This document shows positions 1,307-31,336 of a stretch of 39,213 bases of DNA, piece by piece. The DNA is from a virus: IMG/VR virus record IMGVR_UViG_3300036832_000659, positions 1 through 39,213 of that record; one strand, written 5' to 3'. Under the pieces are notes generated by a model. The model did not search any database, was not told where the DNA came from, and saw only the letters and a list, made by a program, of their open reading frames with translations. How positions within the stretch are numbered: the stretch's first letter is position 1; every line of letters starts with the position of its first letter. Position numbers and translations under genes: made by a program.

Positions 1307-2827
1307 TTGCGGCCTAGCCGCGCTAACCGCGCCATTCACTGGATTGAGGGTTATTGCCGGGTTCCGGAGGGGAAGCTGGTCGGCCAGCCGGTGCGCTTGC
1401 GGGCCTGGCAGCGTCGCGAGCTTCGCCGGATTTACGACAACCCGGCCGGGACCCGCCGCGCGATCCTCAGCTTCGGCCGCAAGAACGGCAAAACGGCGCT
1501 CTCGGCGTTTCTGCTGCTGTTGCACCTCTGCGGGCCCGAGGCCAAGCCGAACAGCCAGCTATACAGCACCGCGCAATCGCGGGACCAGGCCGGCATCATC
1601 TTTGCGCTGGCGGCGAAGATCGTCCGCATGTCGCCGGACCTCAACAGCGTCGTCGCCATCCGCGACAATGCCAAGCAACTGTTTTGCCCGGAGCTCGGCA
1701 CGCTCTACCGGGCGCTGTCGGCCGAGGCGAAAACCGCCTTCGGCTTGTCGCCGGCGATGGTCATCCACGACGAGCTCGGCCAAGTCCGCGGGCCGCGCAG
1801 CCCCCTTTACGAGGCGATGGAAACCGCCACCGGCGCGCAGGCCGACGCGCTCTCGATCATCATCTCGACGCAGGCGCCGACTGACGCGGACCTCTTGTCG
1901 GTGCTGATCGACGATGGCCTCGCGGCGCACGATCCGCGCGTCGTGGTGGCGCTCTACACCGCGCCGACGACGATCGACGACCCGTTCAGCAAACAGGCGA
2001 TCAAGGCGGCTAACCCGGCGTTCGGCGACTTCCTCAACGCCTCCGAAGTGCTGGCGATGGCCGAGGACGCGCGGCGCATGCCGTCGCGCCAAGCCGAATT
2101 TGAAAACCTGATCCTGAATCGCCGAGTCGAGGCGGCCTCCGCGTTCTGTTCGCGCTCGCTCTGGCAGACCTGCAACGCGCCGCCGGTGGCGATCGACCGG
2201 GTGCCGGTTTGGGGCGGGCTCGACCTCTCGGCCGTCGGCGATCTCACGGCACTGGTGCTCGTTGGCCAGGTCGAGGGCGTTTGGCAGGTACACCCGACCT
2301 TCTGGCTCCCCGCGGATGGCCTAGCGCAGAAGGCGCGGCTCGACCGGGTTCCCTACGACCTGTGGGCCGACCAGGGTTATCTCGCCACCGCGCCGGGGAG
2401 CTCGATCGATTACGAATACGTCGCCGAGTTCCTCCGCGGTGTGTTCGACCGCTTCGACGTCCGCAAGATCGCCTTTGACCGCTGGGGTTTTCGCCACTTG
2501 AAACCGTGGCTGCTCAAGGCCGGCTTCACCGAAGGGATGATCGAGGAGCGCTTTTCCGAGTTCGGGCAGGGCTACCACGACATGAGCCCGGCACTTCGGG
2601 CGCTCGAGGGCGAGATCCTTAACGCGCGGCTGGCGCATGGCGGCCATCCGATCATGACGATGTGCGCCGCCAATGCCGCGGTGGCGATCGACCCGGCGGG
2701 CAATCGGAAGTTTGAAAAGCACCGCTCGTCTGGCCGCATCGACGGAATGGTCGCCCTCGCGATGGCGATCGGCGCCGCGACGAGCGACGCGACGGTCAAC
2801 CTCAATATTCGGGCGCTCATCGCATGA
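1307..2827 (+). CDS. terL: Terminase large subunit (HK97-type packaging ATPase/nuclease)
   Basis: A 506-residue packaging motor. The ATPase Walker A is the deviant SFGRKNGKTA (residues about 50-59). Walker B is MVIHDELGQ with the catalytic Glu, and the coupling motif region is SIIISTQAP. The nuclease domain shows metal-binding acidic residues in WGGLDLSAVGDLTALV, KIAFDRWG and the C-terminal GRIDGMVALAMAIG. The frame opens with TTG immediately after the small-subunit stop, the earliest available start. The N-terminus is slightly shorter than some relatives and begins just before HWIEGYCRVPEGKLVGQP, the usual conserved entry. It overlaps the next gene by ATGA at 2824. Confidence 0.93.
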   Translation: MRPSRANRAIHWIEGYCRVPEGKLVGQPVRLRAWQRRELRRIYDNPAGTRRAILSFGRKNGKTALSAFLLLLHLCGPEAKPNSQLYSTAQSRDQAGIIFALAAKIVRMSPDLNSVVAIRDNAKQLFCPELGTLYRALSAEAKTAFGLSPAMVIHDELGQVRGPRSPLYEAMETATGAQADALSIIISTQAPTDADLLSVLIDDGLAAHDPRVVVALYTAPTTIDDPFSKQAIKAANPAFGDFLNASEVLAMAEDARRMPSRQAEFENLILNRRVEAASAFCSRSLWQTCNAPPVAIDRVPVWGGLDLSAVGDLTALVLVGQVEGVWQVHPTFWLPADGLAQKARLDRVPYDLWADQGYLATAPGSSIDYEYVAEFLRGVFDRFDVRKIAFDRWGFRHLKPWLLKAGFTEGMIEERFSEFGQGYHDMSPALRALEGEILNARLAHGGHPIMTMCAANAAVAIDPAGNRKFEKHRSSGRIDGMVALAMAIGAATSDATVNLNIRALIA

Positions 2828-4800
2828 CCGACCTACGCATCAAGGCGCAAGCCGCGCCGCCGCCGGGCGACGACCCGTTCGAGTTCGTGATGTCGGACGA
2901 CAGCGTCGACCGCATGGGCGACGTGATCGAGCAGGACGGCTGGCAGCTTGACAATTTCCGCCGCAACCCGATCGCGCTGTTCGGCCATAGCTCCGGCTTC
3001 CCGATCGGCAAGTGGCATGACGTCGCCGTCAAGGACGGCCAACTGCGCGGCCGGCTCGAATTGATGCCGGCGGTCAGCGATCGCCTGCGCGAAATCCAAG
3101 CCGCGGTCGCCGCCGGCGTCCTGCGCGCCGTGTCGGTCGGCTTTCGCCCGATGGACATGGAGCCGCTCGAAGGCTCCAAGGACGGTGGTTACAGGTTCAC
3201 CAAATCGGAGCTGGTGGAATGCTCGCTCGTGAGCGTCCCGGCGAATCCGAATGCACTCTCGATCGCCAAGGCGATCGGGCTCTCCCGCGATACGCAACGG
3301 CTGATCTTTGGCGAGCTTGCCGATGACGGTCAGACGGTGCGCCGCGGGCTTTCCGGCGGGCTTGCCGTAGATTCTCCGACACGAAAGCCCAAGGCTATGA
3401 ACATCTCCGAACGCATCGAAGCCTCGCAGACGGCTGTCAACCAGCTGCGGGACCAGTTGACCCAACACCTCGGCCAAGCCGGGGATAATCTCGACGAGTC
3501 GTCACTGGCTCGCTCGGATGAACTCAACGCGGCGATCGACGGCGAGCTTCGCCGGCTCGAAACCCTCCAACGCGCAGAAACCGCGCTCGGCAGTACTGCC
3601 GTCGATACTGTGCCGTCATCCGCGGTAGCGGTGCGCGCGCCGCAAGCATCAATCTTGCCGCCGCTCCCGACCGCTCGACCGTTTGCGATTCCGAAGCGGC
3701 CCGAGAAACCCGGCGAATTGTTGATGAACGCCATCATCGCGCACGGCAAAAGCAACCGGATGAACATCCCGGCGGAAAAGGTGCTCGCCGAATACGGCTG
3801 GAGCGATAACGTCGCCGTTCGTGCTTGCCTCGACTGGGTACAGCGCGCGGCGACGGCACCGGCGACGACGACGACGACCGGCTGGGCCGCCGAACTGGTG
3901 CAAACCCAATATGCGGACCTGATCTCATTCCTGTTCGCTGCGTCGGTCTATCAGCCGCTCACGGCTCTCGGCGTGCGGTACACGCTCGGCCGATACGGAC
4001 AAATATCGATCCCCGTCGAGAGCGCGACGCCAACGGTCGCGGGGTCGTTCGTCGCCGAAGGCGCACCGATCCCCGTCCGGCAAGAGGCGTTCACGCCGAT
4101 CACCATCGGCTTGAAAAAGATGGCGGTGATCAGCTCGTTCACCAGGGAATTGTTCGAGCACAGCCAGCCGAACATCGACACTCAGCTGCGGGATCGCATG
4201 AGCCGCGATACCTCGGTCGCCGTCGATACGATCTTGCTGGACAACAATCCGGCGACATCGGTACGGCCGGCGGGGCTTCGGAACGGTGTTTCCGGGCTGA
4301 CACCGACAGCCGGCGGCGGCTTCACCGCGCTCGTTGCCGACATCAAACAGTTGCTGAACGTCCTGATCGCGGCGAACTCGCTGCGCTCGCCGGTCTGGAT
4401 CATGAACCCGCAACAGGCTCTGTCGATCTCGTTGACGTCGGCCGCGGCGGCCGTGGGTGTCTTCCCCTTCAAAGCCGAAATCGAAGCGGGCCGGCTGAAC
4501 GGCTATCCGGTCATTCAGTCGATGACCGTGCCGGTTGGGATGGTGATCATCGTCGACGCTGCGGATTATGCGAGCCTCACCGGCGACGATGCTCGGTTTG
4601 AACTGAGCGACCAAGCCACGCTGCACATGGAGGATACGACGCCGCTGGCGATCGGCACCCCCGGTGCGCCACCGACCGTCGCCGCGCCGGTGCGGTCCAT
4701 GTTCCAAACCGACAGCATCGCGCTCCGCATGATCCTGCCAATGAACTGGATCATGCGCCGCACCGGGCTCGTCGGCTGGCTGACCGGCGTCACTTGGTAA
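2824..4800 (+). CDS. Prohead protease fused to major capsid protein
   Basis: One uninterrupted 658-residue frame joins two genes that are normally separate. Residues about 15-180 are an HK97-type prohead protease (S78/U35 family): VDRMGDVIEQDGW, the catalytic His in LFGHSSGFPIGKW, the catalytic Ser in LRAVSVGFRP, then ELVECSLVSVPANPNA. A linker is followed from residue 192 by MNISERIEASQ and a coiled-coil delta/scaffold region. From about residue 300 comes the HK97-fold capsid protein (VLAEYGWSD..., FVAEGAPIPVRQEAF, SSFTRELFEHSQP, LLDNNPA, PVWIMNP). The capsid part could also start internally at ATG 3397, but the upstream AAGG is only 2 nt from it, so internal initiation would be weak. The protease is expected to cut itself and the delta domain off during maturation. 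Confidence 0.92.
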   Translation: MTDLRIKAQAAPPPGDDPFEFVMSDDSVDRMGDVIEQDGWQLDNFRRNPIALFGHSSGFPIGKWHDVAVKDGQLRGRLELMPAVSDRLREIQAAVAAGVLRAVSVGFRPMDMEPLEGSKDGGYRFTKSELVECSLVSVPANPNALSIAKAIGLSRDTQRLIFGELADDGQTVRRGLSGGLAVDSPTRKPKAMNISERIEASQTAVNQLRDQLTQHLGQAGDNLDESSLARSDELNAAIDGELRRLETLQRAETALGSTAVDTVPSSAVAVRAPQASILPPLPTARPFAIPKRPEKPGELLMNAIIAHGKSNRMNIPAEKVLAEYGWSDNVAVRACLDWVQRAATAPATTTTTGWAAELVQTQYADLISFLFAASVYQPLTALGVRYTLGRYGQISIPVESATPTVAGSFVAEGAPIPVRQEAFTPITIGLKKMAVISSFTRELFEHSQPNIDTQLRDRMSRDTSVAVDTILLDNNPATSVRPAGLRNGVSGLTPTAGGGFTALVADIKQLLNVLIAANSLRSPVWIMNPQQALSISLTSAAAAVGVFPFKAEIEAGRLNGYPVIQSMTVPVGMVIIVDAADYASLTGDDARFELSDQATLHMEDTTPLAIGTPGAPPTVAAPVRSMFQTDSIALRMILPMNWIMRRTGLVGWLTGVTW

Positions 4801-29732: not shown

Positions 29733-29755
29733 TCTTCAGTCTCCTTTCACAAATC

Positions 29756-29865
29756 GTGGCGTTGCGCCGTGGGGCGGGGCCGAGCGGCACCGTACGTAGC
29801 GATGCGAGGCGTGGTGGCGAGGTGAGATGCGATACGATGCGCAGTGCAGCGTGGCGGGGCGATGC
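29756..29865 (-). repeat. Pentanucleotide array 1 (CGCNN)n
   Basis: The gap between two leftward genes is filled by degenerate five-base units. On the coding (minus) strand they read CGCCC CGCCA CGCTG ..., then CGCAT CGTAT CGCAT, then CGCCT CGCAT CGCTA. Nearly all units begin CG or CT. There are no coding signs in register; in-frame TGA lies just before the next gene's start. The array stops about 25 bases before the ATG, leaving a normal Shine-Dalgarno. Confidence 0.75.
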
Positions 29866-29867
29866 CG

Positions 29868-30368
29868 TCATTTGATCTTCGCCAGTTCGTTCAAGGTTTG
29901 GTCGAGCGGCAGTACCGGCGAATCAGGGGCGCTGATGCTCAAAACGCGCGCCAAACTGCGCGATGACGATACCGCCGCGACAGCGCTGAGCAGCGCGAGG
30001 CGACCGAGGAATTGCTGTCGCTCGCTGTTGCTCAGTGCGGCTGTTTCGAGGCCGCGCATCTCTTTCAGCCCGAGCGTCGCTTGCCGGAACGATTTTCGGC
30101 GGCGCCGATCTGGTGCCACCGTCGCCCGTTCTGGTTCCGTTAGCCGGCGCAAGCCGACAGTGGGGACGGCCTCGAATACGATGGTTTCCTCGTCGCGCAG
30201 ATCGCTGCGAGCCGCCGCCAGCACATGGCGGTTCTTGCGCAGATCGCACCGGGCAACGGCTTCCATCATGCCGTAATTGACCGTCGCGCCCGGTTCGACG
30301 GTGCGCAAAAGCTCGACCAGCGCTTGGCGCTCGACCGCTCGACTGTTGGTGATTTGCTCTAGTGGCAT
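29868..30368 (-). CDS. Phage protein with N-terminal winged-helix-like domain
   Basis: A 166-residue protein from ATG 30368 with AAAGGAAAAC as ribosome binding site. Residues 13-75 (ALVELLRTVEPGATVNYGMMEAVARC... RKNRHVLAAARSDLRDEETIVFEAVPTVGLRRL) fit a winged helix seen in small phage regulators. The second half is helical and basic in part (DRRRRKSFRQATLGL). The frame is open upstream into array 2, but that part is pentamer-derived Arg/Pro-rich sequence, so the ATG with the good binding site is preferred. It sits between the unknown conserved protein and the putative annealing protein. Confidence 0.7.
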   Translation of the reverse strand: MPLEQITNSRAVERQALVELLRTVEPGATVNYGMMEAVARCDLRKNRHVLAAARSDLRDEETIVFEAVPTVGLRRLTEPERATVAPDRRRRKSFRQATLGLKEMRGLETAALSNSERQQFLGRLALLSAVAAVSSSRSLARVLSISAPDSPVLPLDQTLNELAKIK

Positions 30369-30377
30369 CGATGTTTT

Positions 30378-30507
30378 CCTTTGAAACTTCGTTGCGTTGC
30401 GGTGCGCCGTGATGCGTGGCGGCGCGGGGCGGCGTGGTGCGTCACGTCGCGAAGCGTGGTGACAAGGTGCGCTGTGTCGCGGGACGCCGCGGCGGGTGCG
30501 GACGAAT
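30378..30507 (-). repeat. Pentanucleotide array 2 (CGCNN)n
   Basis: Same structure as array 1: on the minus strand GCCAC GCATC ACGGC GCACC GCAAC GCAAC, i.e. a C-GC-N-N period of five across about 130 bases, from just after the upstream gene to about 10-15 bases before the ribosome binding site of the next. G-rich on the plus strand, C-rich in the transcript. Confidence 0.75.
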
Positions 30508-31098
30508 TCATTCAGCAGCCAACGCACCGGGTTGTGATATCTCGACAAGTTCGGCGAGCCGGAAGCGGCCATAGAACCCGCCATTAATCGGGCGGAAACG
30601 ACCGATGCCGGTAAAAGCACCCATCTGCTCGATGAAGTAGCGCAGCACGTCAGCCGTTACCGTTTCGTCTAGGATGTGGATTGTTAAATCGCCTTTCCAC
30701 TGGTCAATGCGGGGCATCTGGCGCCAGACCCGACCGCCGCGCCCGCTTCCCGGTTGAGCATCTAGTGACAACCATTCGCCGGGAACATCGTCGGCCTTAA
30801 TGGGCAGGATTATACCTTCCGAGATGAGCGTCCCGGCTCTTACATGCTTGGTGTAAGTAGCCTTGCCCTTGCCCGGAATTTTGATGCTGAGGTATTGAGC
30901 GCACTCAACAAGCGACTCTTTGAATTGAGTTGCTGGGATGAAGACGTGACCATCAGACGTGACGTGCAAACGATGCCGCCAGGTGCGCACTTCATAATCG
31001 TCGTGGCTTTCCTTTTCGTGGCGCGGAAACTCCCGTTCGTATTTGCGAGATTGCGAATACGGGGAAACAGAAGCCAGTGAGGCAATGTAGATTTTTAT
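30508..31098 (-). CDS. Conserved phage protein of the recombination operon, unknown function
   Basis: A 196-residue protein. The best start is the ATA codon at 31098-31096: GAGGGAG lies seven bases upstream, and the protein from there (IKIYIASLASVSPYSQSRKY) begins as relatives I know begin after Met. No ATG, GTG or TTG is suitably placed nearby. Landmarks are KESHDDYEVRTWRHRLHV, GHVFIPATQFKESLVECAQYL, IPGKGKATYTKHVRAGTLI, a C-terminal AFTGIGRFRPINGGFYGRF. A possible resemblance to RAMP/Cas7-like folds (an IPa..fk...l helix plus a Gly-rich loop near the C-terminus) is my impression only. A longer form from ATG 31344 would translate array 3. Confidence 0.7.
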   Translation of the reverse strand: MKIYIASLASVSPYSQSRKYEREFPRHEKESHDDYEVRTWRHRLHVTSDGHVFIPATQFKESLVECAQYLSIKIPGKGKATYTKHVRAGTLISEGIILPIKADDVPGEWLSLDAQPGSGRGGRVWRQMPRIDQWKGDLTIHILDETVTADVLRYFIEQMGAFTGIGRFRPINGGFYGRFRLAELVEISQPGALAAE

Positions 31099-31105
31099 CG
31101 TTTTA

Positions 31106-31336
31106 CTCCCTCGGTGTGAAAGCGTGGCGTGGCGACGAGCAGCGAAGTGTAACGTCGTGTCGCGTTGCGTTGCGGGGCGGCGAGCGGCGAAGCGACGCGT
31201 AGCGGCGAGTTGCGGAAACCGATAAACAAATCGGTGCGGGGCGATGCGGAACTGGACGGTGCGGAACGGTGCGCAGCGTAGCGGAGCGGGGCACCGCGAG
31301 GCGGGGCGCCGTGACACCTTAAGGAAGTGCGCCACT
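31106..31336 (-). repeat. Pentanucleotide array 3 (CGCNN)n
   Basis: The longest array, about 230 bases. On the minus strand: CGCTC CGCTA CGCTG CGCAC, then CGCAA CTCGC CGCTA CGCGT, then CGCCC CGCAA CGCAA CGCGA. It is interrupted at 31218-31235 by a perfect inverted repeat ACCGAT-aaacaa-ATCGGT. It runs from the nuclease stop to just before the GGGAG of the next gene. Confidence 0.8.

Follow-up and report, generated by a model that had tools for sequence, protein, structure and literature searches.

The window analysed in this study is the whole virus record IMGVR_UViG_3300036832_000659 (39,213 bases). In a recombination operon on its minus strand, (CGCNN)n repeats fill three gaps of 135, 139 and 232 bases that separate four minus-strand genes, among them vipr, which encodes a protein of the RAMP/Cas7 fold, and its accessory gene vap. 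VIPR is an RNA-guided DNA-recognition system whose guides usually have the form GGY/NN, follow a 1-nucleotide skip rule and have their targets in rival phages (PMC13142463, a 2026 preprint). Seven VIPR types are mentioned there, with GGY/NN "or a related consensus" (PMC13142463). Considering the arrays, their linkage to vipr, the protein family, its fold and the fit to the targeting rule, VIPR membership of this locus is well supported, and we conclude that the window very probably carries a VIPR system.

Periodicity and bounds of the repeat tracts

The self-identity of the three gaps at lag 5 was 0.55, 0.47 and 0.49, compared with 0.29-0.30 in dinucleotide shuffles (z = 6.9, 4.2 and 6.5; none of 2000 shuffles as high). 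The remaining 130-base windows of the contig had a mean lag-5 identity of 0.26 and a maximum of 0.384. This autocorrelation had been proposed as a check in a preliminary description of the DNA, and the excess appeared in all three gaps. The gap sizes given there (110, 130 and 230 bases) were nearer to the lengths of the tracts than to those of the true gaps. As also described there, each of the three gaps is closed by a ribosome-binding site, and elsewhere in the operon neighbouring genes overlap or lie a few bases apart.

A cyclic hidden Markov model (HMM) of the window tracts gave C 0.91, G 0.78 (A 0.13) and C 0.83 (T 0.16), followed by N and N. Thus, three positions are fixed and two are free, which agrees with the earlier statement that nothing is conserved beyond CGC; the units would vary outside CGC because the two variable bases carry the guide code. 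The earlier preference for selection over drift was likewise right. The same model bounded the first two tracts as listed in Table 1 and the third at 31120-31317; the latter is broken near 31217-31231, which brings the number of tracts to four. An assembly artefact was rejected, because the tracts are present in many independent contigs. A role as mere filler or spacers of gene junctions was rejected; the tracts flank vipr and vap.

Table 1. Features of the VIPR locus and the capsid site in the window
Feature	Position	Strand	Description
Guide tract A1	29755..29865	-	~21 CGCNN units, directly upstream of the phrog_3657 gene; lag-5 z 6.9, HMM
vap, accessory gene	29868..30368	-	166-aa predicted winged-helix DNA-binding protein, phrog_5926
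Guide tract A2	30390..30500	-	~18 guide units, then 3' motif CGCAACGCAACG; lag-5 z 4.2
vipr	30508..31098	-	196-aa RAMP/Cas7-fold protein, phrog_4652; ATA at start position
Guide tract A3b	31120..31216	-	~19 units, directly upstream of vipr; HMM
Guide tract A3a	31232..31317	-	~16 units, then AT-rich break CGATTTGTTTATCGG; HMM
A2-equivalent site in own major capsid gene (2824-4800, phrog_617)	4606..4659	+	Self, 17/24 bases over 12 core units

Vipr and the spread of the tracts

The Vipr profile matched PDB 36pp, the solved SUSP1 Vipr chain (E 1e-7). With the AlphaFold model of the window protein (predicted local distance difference test, pLDDT, 93.6), the best Foldseek matches were type VII Cas7 and Csm3. 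Counting the window, 53 array loci had relatives of Vipr; none of the 9 array-free relatives did. Exactly one Vipr was found in 47 of 50 array-bearing virus records searched whole; these records had been chosen largely for visible arrays and, mostly, for vipr itself, so this number shows single copy and linkage and is not an unbiased rate. The window Vipr shares its PHROG family with a Vipr-like protein encoded by LESphi2, a phage that has arrays of the GGYNN type. A single Vipr used as a genome query returned no matches.

When 2.9 million viral contigs were scanned for eight consecutive CGYNN units, at least 120 stretches were obtained. In most of them several tracts lay on the same strand, and scores reached 440 bits against a Markov-null maximum of 26. 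The 5694 pooled units showed C 0.94, G 0.83 and C 0.93, then two nearly free bases, and CGCAA made up 54-57% of the last two units; the 3' end CGCAACGCAACG is constant. We also weighed whether the tracts are DNA sites at which a phage protein, acting in regulation or recombination, contacts CGC at half-turn intervals of the helix. The regular period of five and the position in a recombination operon would fit such sites. However, the tracts track the coding strand (200 of 208 arrays lie on the same strand as vipr) and their 3' motif is polar; moreover, the variable bases decode to phage genes, and relatives with the same recombination genes have no tracts, so that this explanation is very improbable. 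Of the half-turn protein contact suggested at first, the regular protein spacing stands, but an RNA scaffold fits in place of the half turn of DNA. The suggestion that a C-rich transcript simply stays unstructured was unsupported; the evidence fits a guide scaffold held by a Cas7-like protein.

The 3' tail forms a structured pair of hairpins in one clade, where covariation was found (both bases replaced in 4 pairs). In the window the 3' motif of A2 alone is clear, so the constant structured tail is a weaker feature there. A two-hairpin spacer of ~60 bases, with paired changes, is conserved between guide blocks in five loci (L113, L029, L035, L045 and L018). An Rfam search of the window and 12 loci, L113 among them, gave no matches; therefore, the spacers contain no known ribozyme family.

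Bacterial genomes with the motif mostly had pure CGCAA repeats without Vipr, and six bacterial-genome loci combined degenerate tracts with Vipr. The pure repeats, seen in many bacteria (L132-L205) and unrelated to Vipr, are probably ordinary simple-sequence repeats. That the tracts themselves are ordinary repeats of this kind, decayed by mutation, might be thought from the many genomes with pure CGCAA. At Vipr loci, however, CGC stays in phase for tens of units with diverse NN, and degenerate tracts accompany every Vipr found while the pure repeats lack it; we give such decay hardly any credence.

The accessory gene vap accompanied vipr in 56 of 65 loci (search run with arrays masked). The AlphaFold model of Vap had a pLDDT of 94.9 with weak structural matches, profile comparisons gave weak MGMT winged-helix matches, and in four phages of the GGY type the gene next to vipr matched the Vap profile. 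In three relatives (L003, L004 and L009) the nuclease is followed by the phrog_3657 gene and the cassette is absent; therefore, the cassette has been gained or lost as a unit, which bears out the earlier idea of an inserted element family. The Cas4-like nuclease is part of the phage operon and is retained in array-free relatives, so the association of the repeats with it that had first been drawn is incidental. Searches of the operon DNA against isolated phages gave no matches, and a pattern search of viral contigs for nuclease relatives gave none that could be confirmed.

Guides and candidate targets

Among the four window guides, a candidate target was found for A2 and none for A1, A3a or A3b. 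A2 matches the major capsid gene of another VIPR-bearing phage at 22 of 24 bases over 12 units, and in the rival capsid genes the skipped base falls on the wobble position. The equivalent site in the window's own capsid gene (Table 1) is a poorer fit, at 17 of 24 bases, yet it fits the last three A2 units, which not all rivals do. The simplest reading is that an unseen rival, close to both self and the known rivals, is the target of A2. Array-free relatives of the window capsid gene offered no better A2 target, and tblastn of the decoded peptides against phages gave no matches.

The targeting rule was also examined in other loci. Under the 1-nucleotide skip rule, the guide of a Paracoccus locus (L206) decodes as GANCCNCTNATNGANCGNGTNACNCTNGT. 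In 397 genomes of the family it had 20 matches with at most two mismatches, 4 of them perfect, versus 3 for the reversed pattern, and 12 of these matches share one site of the phage gene for the terminase large subunit (DPLIERVTLV and close variants) with the skipped base at the wobble position. We then compared 311 guides with 6.7 megabases of DNA, counting both strands and masking the arrays. Guides scoring at least 17 numbered 7 for the forward skip of 1, 0 for the same skip reversed and 5 in total for six other controls. Thus, across the 311 guides there is a clear excess for the 1-nucleotide skip in the right orientation only. In addition, three guides of L099 match its close relative L044, one of them at 26 of 28 bases versus 21 of 28 in L099 itself, and a terminase gene is matched by guides of both loci. 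Once decoded, a guide of another locus (L159:5400-5513) corresponds to the glycine loop (RPRNNGYYGRF) encoded by other vipr genes and looks as if it were aimed at rival VIPR systems. It matches 20 of 22 bases on other vipr genes and 19 of 22 on its own, so the distinction between self and rival is slight in this case.

Following the system of the preprint, the tracts would be transcribed and processed, would form a ribonucleoprotein and would bind DNA and silence genes. Transcription along with the operon would turn the CGCNN tracts into vrRNA-type guide RNAs. Each of these would be coated by the Cas7-like Vipr, with a subunit for every five bases that grips the fixed CGC and presents the two variable ones. 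Double-stranded DNA would be read by consecutive NN pairs, one base being skipped between them (NNxNNx...), usually at the codon wobble position. The complex may in this way block genes of competing phages, A2 being directed at the major capsid gene, and Vap probably assists on DNA.

Several points weigh against a VIPR system in the window. The triplet is CGC/CGY here and GGY in VIPR type II; this rules out type II as described but not VIPR, for which a related consensus is allowed. The best known target of A2 matches 22 of 24 bases and no perfect match was found, and searches of the viral collection with exact patterns of nine units, made for each of the four window guides, gave no matches. 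A gapped 18-base pattern of A2, from which the single unit mismatched in the first match had been omitted, gave five matches in that collection, all at one site of major capsid genes; these genes are homologous and one of them is the first match, so they count as one site and not as five proofs. The guide of a Roseomonas locus showed no excess in 398 genomes (5 matches versus 4 for the control). Finally, the start position of the window vipr (31096-31098) reads ATA, where relatives have ATG or GTG, and neither these nor TTG is present at that position. ATA might serve as a rare start codon or might point to decay, and therefore the window copy may be decaying.

The DNA helicase genes (phrog_62) of L044 and L099 each contain an in-frame guide tract (L044, 3583-3643; L099, 2222-2307), and the guide within the L099 helicase has a match in the L044 helicase gene, near the tract of L044 itself. 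Thus, coding sequence can carry a guide. No forward frame of (CGCNN)n contains a stop codon, which may be what allows guides to be embedded in this way. The in-frame helicase tract, together with the open frames spanning the tracts, would also suit translated linkers, with ribosomes reading through into vipr and vap. Nevertheless, stop-free frames follow from the motif itself in all frames, in its relatives vipr has a ribosome-binding site and a start of its own downstream of the tract, and translation would leave the decoded targets unexplained; a linker function is accordingly most unlikely.

Comparison with known systems

The locus has much in common with VIPR type II, known from phage SUSP1 and a Pseudomonas fulva prophage (PMC13142463): a small RAMP protein, pentamer tracts with a fixed triplet and free NN, a 3' tail, a vap gene of the DNA-binding type, the skip of 1 nucleotide on the wobble base, and targets in rival phages that include other vipr genes. 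Besides the triplet, it differs in that the CGC-type Viprs group in a single clade, separate from four GGY-type Viprs, the loci of which indeed contain GGYNN tracts; the median guide block has 15 units, and guides are possible inside a coding gene. We tentatively suggest that CGC/NN VIPR may be a type not yet described, with a triplet code of its own and a wide spread among uncultivated phages, with in-frame guides within phage genes (the helicase of L044 and L099) and with guides chosen to fit a gene's allele in a rival better than the allele in the phage itself.

In class 1 CRISPR-Cas systems the guide-binding subunit of the Cas7/Csm3 backbone has the RAMP fold, as here. In contrast to those systems, no CRISPR repeats, cas genes or cas operon were seen around the cassette, the period is 5, and each unit has two informative bases. 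The (KAGNN)n sites of the TRAP attenuation protein also consist of a triplet and a two-base spacer on RNA that is read by repeated protein subunits, but the NN of TRAP sites holds no target information.

Our results provide independent sequence support for the claim, made months ago, that a non-contiguous RNA code predates CRISPR, and indicate that this code also works with another fixed triplet. They name testable targets (capsid, terminase, helicase and vipr), suggest how such phages distinguish self from rival, and make hundreds of decodable guides in uncultivated viruses readable.

Three loci, L043 (G016), L112 (G039) and L040 (G047), have degenerate tracts in spite of which the profile found no Vipr. 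L112, in which both strands give matches, may represent something else. In the Pseudomonas phage LESphi2 (L240, OQ594955), a "hypothetical" Vipr-like gene, its neighbour and three GGYNN tracts lie at 2191-3680, and judged by this arrangement the phage looks like a VIPR carrier. The LESphi2 Vipr matches 134 phage records, mainly of Escherichia and Salmonella phages.
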